Of a DNA stretch of 64,000 nucleotides, positions 19,392-50,260 are shown piece by piece. The stretch is from assembly GCA_014896455.1 (NCBI GenBank), contig JADBKJ010000012.1:1-64000 (forward strand). Reading direction: 5' to 3'. How positions within the stretch are numbered: position 1 is the first letter of the stretch; every line of letters begins with the position of its first letter. A program made the translations under genes and the position numbers. Origin of the DNA: Thermoanaerobacter sp. (GTDB lineage: Bacteria; Bacillota; Thermoanaerobacteria; Thermoanaerobacterales; Thermoanaerobacteraceae). The notes beneath the pieces were generated by a model. The model saw only the letters and a list, made by a program, of their open reading frames with translations. It ran no database searches and was not told where the DNA came from.

Positions 19392-21470
19392 CTAAGTAAT
19401 TATCCTTTTTATTTCTTCGTAAAATTTTTTCAATAACACTTCTTTTATTTTTTCTTTGACCTCCTTTTGGGACTGTGCTTCGTTAAGAGTATTCACTAAA
19501 TCTTCTCTTTCAATTAAAGACATACTTAAATCTCCCAAAACTTCAATTCCTTCTCTATCACCTTCTGGTGCTACCATTAAAAAAGCTGTCCTTATCTTTT
19601 CATAATCTCCTACAAGATTTTTCATTTTTACTTTCTCTATAACTTTTCCTACAACTACTAATGGAAAATCTATATTTTCAATTGTGCAATGATATATTAC
19701 AAATCCTTTGTTTGGTAATACTATTTTACCTAAGCTTTCTCTTTTTAAAAGTCTTTCTTTTATTTGCTCCTTTTGATTTTCATTAATTAAATTTTCATCT
19801 ATCAAATTCTTAAGAATATATTCTATTATTTGAGAAGAATTTTCACCTTTTGCAGTCATGTAAGTTATGGTGTCGCATAGCTCCAAAATTCTCTTACCAT
19901 AATTGGCTATGTGTAAAGCCTCTTTTTTAAAATTGCTTTCTTCTTCTTTTATTCCATATTCCATAATAAAGTCTGTATTTAATGCCTTCTTTAGCTTTTC
20001 TACATCTTCCTTTAAAAGCAAGGGATTTACTACAACGACTTTTTTGTCTTTTATGTCAAGAGGTATTGTAGAAACAATTAAATCTATATCATCTCTTACT
20101 TTTAAATCTTTTAATTTTATGCTAGAGGTAACATCCACTATGTTTATTTGTGGAAACATCTGAAGTTTTGACATCAGCATCCTTGATGTTCCAATACCAC
20201 TAGCACATACCACCATTATGTTGTACCTTTGGGAACCCTCTTTTTTCCTCTCTAAAGCTGCACCAAAATGCATAGCAATATATCCAACTTCATCTTCTGG
20301 AATATCCATGTTTAATTTTTTCCGCAAAACATCGCAAACTCTATTGCTTTTTTCAAAAAGCAAAGGATATTTTGTTTTTATATCCTCCAACAAAGGGTTT
20401 CTTATATCAAGTCCCATCTCCAATCTGTACACTGCGGGAACTAAATGACTCTTTAAGCCATCTTCCAGAAACTCATCTTCTGAAAAACTGACATCAAAAA
20501 TTTTTTCTGCTTCCTTTATCATGTCCCGGGCAATAATCTCTATGTCTTTGTCATTGTAATTTTGAGTAGTTGACCTGTACTTTGCACCTATAAGGTGTAT
20601 TGTCACATAGCCAATCTCATCTTCAGGTATAGGTATATCCAATTCTTCTTGTAAATATTTAGCTAACTTTTTAGCAAATTTGTATTCATTAGTCTTTTTA
20701 AGTTCCTGTAAATTGTCTTCCCCCATTTCAATAGTTTCACCATTTTGAAGCCTTTTTATAGCTAAAGCAAGGTGAACGACAAGACCTAAATAGGAACTTT
20801 CTACAATTTCATAGTCAATTTGCGATTTTAATTTTAAAATTGCCTTTTCTATTTTCAACACAGTATCATAGTCAATTAAGTTTAAAAGCCTCAAATCTAT
20901 GTTTTTTTCAATATTGTTTCTTGCGAGATATCCTGTTTTTAAGAAATCAATCAAATCCGCAGTATCAAAATTCTCATACAAAAAGTTAACTATAGCTTTT
21001 CTAAAAGAGTTTTCGCTTCCCGATATATAAACGCCATAACCAGGCTTTGTTATTAAAGTTAATCCCTGTTTTTCAATCCACTTTTCCAACTCTTTAAGGT
21101 CATAACTTATTGTAGAAGTGGTAACACCAAATTTTTTGCTGAAATACTCTAATTTGGAGGGCTCATTTAGCTGCAAAAGCTCTGACAATATCATTTTTCT
21201 TCTCTCTTCTGTTTCAAGCTCTGAACGATATCCTACTATATCCAGCTTTAGCTTCTCAATATCAGCAACATTGCCTTCTATAACCAACCCATCAGTTTTA
21301 TTTACAATTTTTGAGTTGTAATTTTTAATAAATTCTTTTATAGAAGCAATTTCTCTGTATACTGTCCTTTTGCTTATATCAAATTCTTTCATAATGTCTT
21401 CCATTCTTGTATTTGAAGAGGACAGTATTTTTCTTAAAATTTGCAGCTGGCGCCCACTTAGCTTATTCAT
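19392..21470 (-). CDS. PRD-containing transcriptional regulator with PTS IIB and IIA domains (LicR/MtlR type)
   Basis: 692 residues. Order: N-terminal HTH (QLQILRKILSSSNT…SKRTVYREI, about 5-50), second Mga-like HTH (FSKKFGVTTSTISYDL, about 105-150), PRD1 and PRD2 (about 175-395, with conserved His in VVHLALAI, VTIHLIGAK, LKSHLVPA and IAMHFGAA), a galactitol-type IIB domain (NIMVVCASGIGTSRML, about 410-490) and a fructose/mannitol-type IIA domain (His in FVIYHCTIE). Phosphorylation by HPr and by the cognate PTS should set its activity. It is the first gene of the operon, with its own promoter. A degraded inverted copy of codons around 262-318 sits in repeat element B upstream. Confidence 0.94.
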   Translation of the reverse strand: MNKLSGRQLQILRKILSSSNTRMEDIMKEFDISKRTVYREIASIKEFIKNYNSKIVNKTDGLVIEGNVADIEKLKLDIVGYRSELETEERRKMILSELLQLNEPSKLEYFSKKFGVTTSTISYDLKELEKWIEKQGLTLITKPGYGVYISGSENSFRKAIVNFLYENFDTADLIDFLKTGYLARNNIEKNIDLRLLNLIDYDTVLKIEKAILKLKSQIDYEIVESSYLGLVVHLALAIKRLQNGETIEMGEDNLQELKKTNEYKFAKKLAKYLQEELDIPIPEDEIGYVTIHLIGAKYRSTTQNYNDKDIEIIARDMIKEAEKIFDVSFSEDEFLEDGLKSHLVPAVYRLEMGLDIRNPLLEDIKTKYPLLFEKSNRVCDVLRKKLNMDIPEDEVGYIAMHFGAALERKKEGSQRYNIMVVCASGIGTSRMLMSKLQMFPQINIVDVTSSIKLKDLKVRDDIDLIVSTIPLDIKDKKVVVVNPLLLKEDVEKLKKALNTDFIMEYGIKEEESNFKKEALHIANYGKRILELCDTITYMTAKGENSSQIIEYILKNLIDENLINENQKEQIKERLLKRESLGKIVLPNKGFVIYHCTIENIDFPLVVVGKVIEKVKMKNLVGDYEKIRTAFLMVAPEGDREGIEVLGDLSMSLIEREDLVNTLNEAQSQKEVKEKIKEVLLKKFYEEIKRIIT

Positions 21471-21624: not shown

Positions 21625-21646
21625 AGACCTCGTCAAAGCGAGGTCT
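21625..21646 (-). terminator. Outer terminator hairpin flanking element B (copy 1)
   Basis: AGACCTCG (21625-21632) and CGAGGTCT (21639-21646) around TCAAAG; on the minus strand it is followed by TATTTTATAT. It is nearly identical to the hairpin at 21904-21927 on the other side of the element. Confidence 0.75.
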
Positions 21647-21904
21647 CAGACTGTAGACAAACTTTCGTAAAGGAGATATTTTGCAATCGGTGCGACTTGC
21701 CAAAGTGTTAGCTAATATTTACAAGAAGAATTGATATACTATACCTGAAAGATGAGATTGCCAAGTGACAATACACCCTATAGGTAAAAGTACAGTCAAC
21801 TACTCAAAATTACAAATGACAAAGACATAGAGATTATTGCCCGTGGGACATGATACAAAAGGAAGTATCTCCTTTGAATATTTTTTAACTTTTTCAACAA
21901 ACTG
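21647..21904. repeat. Repeat element B, flanked by duplicated terminator hairpins
   Basis: One end (21647-21697) reads CAGACTGTAGACAAACTTTC and then AAAGGAGATATTTTGCAATC, matching the right end of element A base for base for about 50 nt. The other end, on the minus strand (21904 downwards), reads CAGTTTGTTGAAAAAG and then AAAAAATATTCAAAGGAGAT, matching the left end of element A. The interior is different: it is a degraded piece of the adjacent PTS regulator gene. Both sides carry the same terminator hairpin with a one-base difference. This element and the hairpins fill the gap between the PTS regulator promoter and the spoVB-like gene. Confidence 0.8.
21702..21866 (+). pseudogene. Captured, indel-ridden fragment of the PTS regulator gene
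   Basis: About 165 bases align by eye to the coding strand of the PRD regulator (reverse complement of about 20515-20679), for example ATTTACAAGAAGAATT, GTGACAATACACC, TCAACTACTCAAAATTACAA and AAAGACATAGAGATTATTGC. The differences are mostly one-base insertions or deletions, often in short runs (GAA to GAAA, GGA to GA, CAATG to CAAATG), so no frame survives. The copy is inverted relative to its source 1 kb away. Confidence 0.85.
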
Positions 21905-21927
21905 AGACCTCATCAAAGCGAGGTCTC
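21904..21927 (-). terminator. Inner terminator hairpin flanking element B (copy 2)
   Basis: GAGACCTC (21904-21911) and GAGGTCTC (21920-21927). It differs from the copy at 21625-21646 by one base in the loop-proximal stem. It has no T tract on the minus strand because element sequence follows directly. Confidence 0.7.
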
Positions 21928-21950
21928 AGACTGTTGACAAAGTTAAAAAA
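21927..21950. repeat. Solitary element end next to the spoVB-like gene terminator
   Basis: CAGACTGTTGACAAAG followed by TTAAAAAA: an end of the same family, with no body attached, lying between hairpin copy 2 and the spoVB-like gene terminator. Confidence 0.65.
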
Positions 21951-37631: not shown

Positions 37632-37679
37632 AAAAAATAAACCCGGCAGGAATAGAGTGAAACCTATCCTCCCGGGCTT
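37632..37679 (-). terminator. Riboswitch expression-platform terminator
   Basis: On the minus strand CCCGGGAGGATAGG pairs with CTATTCCTGCCGGG (stem 37642-37676, one bulge) and runs into TTATTTTTTTT. Its 5' arm is the last conserved part of the PRPP aptamer (AAAAGCCCGGGAG), so ligand binding competes with termination. Confidence 0.85.
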
Positions 37680-37766
37680 TTATCCCTTAGGTGTAGTATA
37701 TGAAAACCCATATACCTGTACCGCTCGGTCCAAACACCTATAAACTAGGCTGGAACCCTAGGTACA
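37660..37766 (-). promoter_or_regulatory. PRPP riboswitch aptamer (ykkC subtype 2b)
   Basis: On the minus strand the ykkC core is clear: CTAGGGTTCC, then GGACCGAGCGGTAC, then ACACCTAAGGGATAAAAG and CCCGGGAG. The subtype (PRPP rather than guanidine or ppGpp) is inferred from purine context and from the adjoining guanine aptamer, an arrangement described for tandem guanine-PRPP riboswitches. PRPP should turn the downstream genes on. Confidence 0.88.
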
Positions 37767-37770
37767 CTTT

Positions 37771-37841
37771 CACTCATAGTCGAACAATTTACGGTTGTTC
37801 GGTAGAGACTCTCGAGCCATATTCTCGAGATTATATGAGTG
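37771..37841 (-). promoter_or_regulatory. Guanine riboswitch aptamer (first of the tandem)
   Basis: On the minus strand CACTCATATAATC opens P1 and ACTATGAGTG closes it. The core has ATATGG, GTCTCTACC and the two loops of the purine aptamer (CCGTAAA). A C at the specificity position (TTCGACTATGAG) predicts guanine/hypoxanthine. It lies four bases upstream of the PRPP aptamer. Confidence 0.95.
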
Positions 37842-37867
37842 TTTTTTTATTCAATTGTCACACTTAT

Positions 37868-50112: not shown

Positions 50113-50140
50113 AAAAAAAAGCCGAAAAGCGGCTTTTTTT
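50113..50140. terminator. Terminator hairpin flanking element C (copy 1)
   Basis: AAAAAAAAGCCG and CGGCTTTTTTTT around AAAAG: strong on both strands. Nearly the same hairpin recurs on the other side of the element at 50240-50260. Confidence 0.85.
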
Positions 50141-50240
50141 TGTTGACAAAATCCTTCTTATTTAAGTGGCATTTTGTGTTAATGCTCCAGAGTTGCATTT
50201 ACACACAAAATGCCACTTCTTTAGTTTGTTAACAGTCTGA
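50141..50240. repeat. Repeat element C, short form with a long internal hairpin
   Basis: The left end TGTTGACAAAATCC abuts the T run of hairpin copy 1; the right end, on the minus strand, reads CAGACTGTTAACAAAC, the family end. Between them AAGTGGCATTTTGTG and CACAAAATGCCACTT are exact inverted copies, with a further AATGC/GCATT pair in the loop, so the whole element folds into one hairpin. There is no coding capacity. Terminator hairpins with a one-base difference lie on both sides. Confidence 0.75.
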
Positions 50241-50260
50241 AGCCGAAAACCGGCTTTTTT
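50240..50260 (-). terminator. Terminator hairpin flanking element C (copy 2), gdhA side
   Basis: AAGCCG (50240-50245), AAAAC loop, CGGCTT (50251-50256) and further T on the plus strand. It differs from copy 1 by one loop base. It lies just past the stop of the gdhA fragment. Confidence 0.75.

Follow-up and report, generated by a model that had tools for sequence, protein, structure and literature searches.

In the window, a stretch of 64,000 nucleotides of Thermoanaerobacter sp. DNA, two short elements each stand between two almost identical hairpins of the kind found in intrinsic terminators. This arrangement raises the questions of whether the hairpin was duplicated as the target of insertion, was copied along with the element, or was already present twice, and of which enzyme moves such elements.

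Elements of the window and their dispersed family

The hairpin at 21625–21646 (AGACCTCGTCAAAGCGAGGTCT; DNA folding z −5.4) and that at 21905–21926 (AGACCTCATCAAAGCGAGGTCT) were identical at 21 of 22 positions and abutted the two ends of a 258-bp element (21647–21904). A lone element end on the plus strand (CAGACTGTTGACAAAGTTAAAAAA; 21927–21950) followed, which is probably the remnant of a second element that would have inserted at the same hairpin. At the other site, hairpins recognized by sequence and DNA folding at 50119–50135 (AAGCCGAAAAGCGGCTT) and by sequence at 50240–50256 (AAGCCGAAAACCGGCTT) matched at 16 of 17 positions and abutted the ends of an element at 50136–50239. An initial sequence-only reading had claimed near-identical hairpins on both sides at 21625–21950 and at 50113–50260, together with three elements and a lone end sharing inverted ends. 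All of these were present in the sequence, the third element being better placed at 50136–50239 than at the 50141–50240 proposed. The remaining element (132–394; 263 bp) carried a terminator-like hairpin on its left (AAAGTCAGTCATTATTGACTGACTTT; 106–131) and no matching copy of it on its right. Because the window begins at base 1 of contig C4 of the draft genome (2.22 Mb, 33 contigs), and because bases 42–131 recur without change as the left flank of a copy on contig C11, the junction of this element is probably recombinant or an assembly chimera; on contig C11, the flank hairpin matching 106–131 stood duplicated on both sides of the element copy there (L031).

The shared ends were not a product of chance, since a whole-genome scan with the 15-base end (at most one mismatch) returned 200 matches, compared with three for a reversed-pattern control. 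A genome search with the feature under study gave 87 matches, and a search with the canonical copy at 132–394 gave 64 in the draft genome and 13–46 in every congener examined, a range of 13–64 across all ten genomes of the genus. In a second genus of the family, four of nine genomes had one weaker match each and the other five had none. Canonical copies were 258–268 bp long with ends CAGACTGTAGACAAA and CAGTTTGTTGACAAA, non-coding, and present in many copies with terminal inverted repeats; their ends were common to an autonomous IS1182-family element, and in both the target duplication was a whole hairpin. The elements are thus a dispersed family of approximately 260-bp miniature inverted-repeat transposable elements (MITEs), i.e., non-autonomous transposons, and the proposal of a single family was confirmed by the genome and genus searches.

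The interiors of the three elements had been described as unrelated, which holds only in part. The copy at 132–394 is a canonical MITE, and that at 21647–21904 has canonical ends around a captured interior: a gapped alignment of the segment at about 21697–21865 (minus strand) with the reverse complement of 20510–20677 showed 89% identity, and this source region lies within the minus-strand open reading frame 19392–21470 of the neighboring gene. By sequence comparison, this MITE is an instance of gene-fragment capture. The element at 50136–50239 has lost part of its interior and belongs to a second subfamily, which is frequent in genome G003 and has a full length of about 246 bp there; the outermost CAG of the window copy was mutated to TTT.

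The canonical MITE folded end to end into one long imperfect hairpin. A structured RNA within it was rejected on the basis of a covariation term of about zero and the lack of an Rfam family match. The GC-rich middle was variable, and some copies had replaced or inverted interiors; among them, L293:205–470 and L064:674–938 held one inverted and one replaced interior between normal MITE ends. In nested copies (L057, L062, L049, L032, L069, and L066), a complete MITE lay within another copy, and one hairpin duplication flanked the whole unit, as if nested units move together. Elsewhere in the window, on the minus strand at 37667–37858, a purine riboswitch was followed directly by a riboswitch of the Guanidine-I (ykkC) family; guanine–PRPP tandem riboswitches are known in Thermoanaerobacter.

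Whole hairpins as duplicated targets

Automatic pairing of element ends in the draft genome gave 69 pairs, a few of them spurious. In 45 of these, the same 16–30-bp sequence, mostly letter-perfect, stood on both sides, and this sequence was a complete hairpin (e.g., ACAGTATTAGTTACCCTAATACTGT at L041, ATCTAGCTTATCATTCCTGATAAGCTAGAT at L046, and AGGCATCTTGAACCCCTCAAGATGCCT at L059). The same strict duplication score was passed by 37 of 49 copies sampled in the complete genomes of four congeners, and several of the remaining copies showed decayed hairpin copies. MITEs and insertion sequence (IS) elements pooled together provided 105 distinct duplications of 16–33 bp (median 24). The outer six position pairs of these duplications were complementary in 85.6% of cases in frame, compared with 20–35% when the frame was slid by 1–8 bases (33–35% at one base) and 27.5% after shuffling. 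At least five of the six outer pairs were complementary in 87 of the 105 duplications, as opposed to at most six in displaced controls, and in 90 of 104 the dyad of the hairpin coincided exactly with the center of the duplication. Tracts like those of intrinsic terminators, either T-rich on the right or A-rich on the left, accompanied 93 of the 105. The duplicated target is therefore an entire hairpin, mostly an intrinsic terminator, whose two edges lie at equal distances from the dyad.

To examine the state of these sites before insertion, we joined the two flanks of 15 MITE loci with one hairpin and searched for them across the genus. At 14 of the 15 loci, a relative carried one hairpin and no element, with 93–100% junction identity in the best match; for the element at 50136–50239, the empty site was found in G003 (L234). 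The genus search found no clean empty site for the element at 21647–21904, and the orthologous terminator in G008 also abutted the end of a diverged element (L288). Terminator hairpins are common between genes, and paired hairpins might therefore arise by chance, or the elements might lie by coincidence between tandem terminators that were already there. The single hairpins of the empty orthologs, together with duplications that are locus specific and mostly letter-perfect, ruled this out, and we assign it practically no weight. The earlier suggestion that the target-site duplication is itself a whole terminator hairpin was thus borne out. The refuting condition set for it, empty orthologous sites with two terminators in tandem, did not hold, relatives without the element carrying a single hairpin. 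The alternative raised with it, a mechanism that copies the terminator along with the element, is unneeded, since the hairpins differ from locus to locus and the one at a given locus also stands in the empty ortholog.

About 20 copies in the draft genome had no duplication; most of these we tentatively ascribe to recombination or to chimeras in the assembly. About a dozen of the draft copies had recurrent foreign right flanks (CGAGAGTATTTCGTATACTCTC... and AGAGAGTATACGAAATACTCTC...) that varied in length and reached about 75 bp. Copies with such flanks and without a full duplication beside the element were L022, L026, L027:8300, L035:10697, L039:587, L044, L045:570, L050, L055, and L058. We first considered these flanks as a second mobile segment or as the result of one-ended transposition. 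Nine foreign-flank MITEs were identical over 265 bp, and the class was absent among the copies sampled in complete genomes, making chimeras the likelier source; these copies are provisionally, and probably, assembly chimeras and otherwise one-ended events.

The IS1182-family partner and related elements

The sequence-only reading had found no transposase, held that movement would need help in trans, and knew of no terminator-targeting element that fits these ends or sizes. Our search for a full-length relative with a transposase identified, in congeners, IS1182-family elements of 1560–1568 bp with ends CAGACTGTTGACAAA and CAGTTTGTTGACAAA, the same as those of the MITEs. This family does fit, full-length members with these ends being present in the genus, and a trans-acting transposase is supported at the sequence level. 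The transposase scored 497 bits to the IS1182 model NF033551 (cut-off 270). Whole-hairpin duplications of 19–32 bp flanked 11 of 13 full IS copies in congeners, the exceptions being L124, with a 6-base duplication, and L127, with none; another genus of the order (G022) had one IS copy with a whole-hairpin duplication of 16 bp.

A connection independent of the ends was provided by G008, in which three of eight IS sites were orthologous terminators occupied by MITEs in the draft genome (L133 and L046, L132 and L035:5970, and L130 and L032). The MITE and the IS have only about 16 terminal bases in common, and the draft genome contained only a decayed, frameshifted remnant of an IS1182 element of this kind and no intact transposase, so it could be argued that another transposase moves the MITEs and that their ends came to resemble those of the IS by convergence. 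Given the same ends, the same unusual duplication, the shared orthologous sites, and the co-occurrence in the genus, we consider this very unlikely. With only the decayed transposase left, the MITEs of the draft genome are probably now stranded, unless an intact IS resides in unassembled DNA.

Three IS copies (L123, L128, and L131; G006 and G008) had a transposase frame without a stop codon of its own. The frame ran on across the right inverted repeat (...FVNKL) and ended up in the target hairpin, and the C-terminus accordingly varies with the insertion site. The full-length IS also has terminator-like hairpins just inside its ends, and at L020:1003–1325 a MITE had inserted in a hairpin within a leftover IS end.

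When genomes and plasmids of bacteria as well as phages were scanned, IS1182 elements with CAG...GACAAA-type ends were seen to duplicate the whole hairpin in Oscillibacter, Christensenellaceae, Tissierellia, and other Clostridia, and likewise in Sutcliffiella, Enterococcus faecium, two Streptococcus prophages, and Rhizobium. ISEfa7 and its relatives in Enterococcus, Streptococcus, and Sutcliffiella have this type of end, and the related L321, L323, L324, and L325 duplicated the whole hairpin, whereas both ISEfa7-type copies examined (L322 and L330) were without a matching duplication. IS1182 subgroups with other ends (ggggctgtt..., ctaggagtcc..., ISCfr1, and ISSau3) belong to the same transposase family, but no whole-hairpin duplication was found in those examined (G015, G011, G029, G026, ISCfr1, S. 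fredii, and ISSau3). On the transposase tree, whose long branches leave the deep order uncertain, the trait required 2 changes, compared with 6.9 when labels were shuffled.

Group IIC introns also target terminator hairpins. They are defined by an intron RNA, a reverse transcriptase, and the absence of a target duplication, whereas the present elements are approximately 260 bp long, have inverted DNA ends, duplicate the whole hairpin, and show no orientation bias; an Rfam search of the window gave no intron match. A closer parallel is IS1272 of the IS1182 family, which inserts into terminator hairpins and removes the target stem-loop without target duplication (Furi 2016, PMC4923244; Wan 2017, PMC5678879). 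IS1272/TnSha1 and the present elements both use stem-loops, often terminators, in both orientations and without a primary sequence preference. They differ in outcome: IS1272 deletes the stem-loop, while the present elements duplicate it whole, with a hairpin on both sides and a single one in empty sites, and the IS1272 transposase is distant from the present one (28% over about a third). Whole-hairpin duplication was drawn as the hypothetical pathway b of an IS1272 model (Wan 2017, PMC5678879).

The IS1182-like element of Thermoanaerobacter kivui linked to the megatransposon TnCO-1 (PMC12056078) is probably the same IS as L123 (G006, at about 1.84 Mb), which had IS1182 ends and a hairpin as its own duplication (22 of 23 positions identical); the passages of that paper examined described neither hairpin duplication nor MITEs. 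In the literature searched, outside ISfinder and the Siguier 2015 review, we found no report of whole-hairpin duplication as an observed fact. IS1182 elements and their hairpin preference were already known, and what is new relative to that literature is a subgroup in which duplicating the whole hairpin is the rule. Some IS1182 members have long direct repeats in ISfinder, where single cases of hairpin duplication may thus already be on record.

How a whole hairpin could be duplicated

On linear DNA, a DDE transposase makes a nearly fixed stagger, and the usual duplication is correspondingly near fixed and set by the spacing of two active sites; here, the duplications ranged from 16 to 33 bp and ended at the feet of the hairpin. 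Because the stagger varies two-fold and ends at both feet, a cruciform is the simplest target. We consider it likely, judging from sequence comparison, that the MITEs are moved in trans by a subgroup of IS1182-family DDE transposases with ends CAGnnTGTnGACAAA, and that the target is an extruded cruciform. The hairpin would be extruded so that its two 5' feet lie side by side at the cruciform junction, whatever the length of the stem. The transposase would attack and join at both 5' feet, and fill-in of the two single-stranded hairpins would leave one hairpin on each side of the element. The forward U-tract would stay with the right copy and the reverse U-tract with the left, so that both flanking genes should keep a terminator and the insertion should be nearly harmless, which suggests how a bacterium tolerates dozens of copies. 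Against the cruciform reading stands a correlation of only 0.65, a moderate value, between the length of the duplication and that of the G-C bounded core.

Could a protein instead read the palindrome as a linear duplex, each subunit recognizing one arm and cutting its outer edge without extrusion? The edges lay mostly 1–4 A/T bases outside the outermost G-C pair, and their bases were biased (first A 82%, last T 82%). Such edge positions and biased bases could be sensed by a protein that reads sequence. However, no arm sequence was common to the 105 targets, AT-rich terminators of Clostridia and GC-rich terminators of Rhizobium were treated alike, and the cut spacing of about 1.5 to 3 helical turns would be hard for fixed active sites to accommodate. 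We regard such linear recognition as unlikely; the data suggest that DNA shape, rather than sequence, decides where both strands are cut.

Since most targets are terminators, and since single-stranded DNA or hairpins serve as targets for group IIC introns and IS200/IS605 elements, we also considered attack on a single-stranded hairpin, formed either on the lagging strand or, where a terminator is being transcribed, on the non-template strand. Attack on a terminator RNA complex was considered as well; in each case the second strand would be copied later. At 41 one-directional sites, the two insertion orientations relative to the terminator occurred 20 and 21 times. This lack of bias disfavors a strand-specific RNA or single-strand target and is what a two-fold symmetric target predicts; moreover, the enzyme is a DDE transposase acting with terminal inverted repeats. 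We give the single-strand alternative only a small chance of being correct.

The cruciform reading may be extended to the clade. In this proposal, on which we are evenly divided, the IS1182 transposases concerned would target the four-way junction at the 5' feet of a cruciform, and secondary structure, not enzyme geometry, would set the length of the duplication. If so, the many copies of MITEs and IS elements would record, in nature, which terminators extrude in living cells. Cruciform extrusion at terminators in cells becomes testable in this system, and the duplications represent a large, clean data set for an insertion mode that the papers found had sketched only as a possible pathway. They also place the hairpin-deleting IS1272 beside the hairpin-duplicating group, with two outcomes on one kind of target.

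One terminator varied in another respect. The loop at L041 and its orthologs (L244 and L331–L338) was inverted between species, reading TTACCC in G000 and G004 and GGGTAA in most others. Inversion of the hairpin by transposition was rejected, since G004 shares the orientation of G000 without carrying the element. The loop inversion is thus an independent polymorphism, which may itself reflect hairpin processing.
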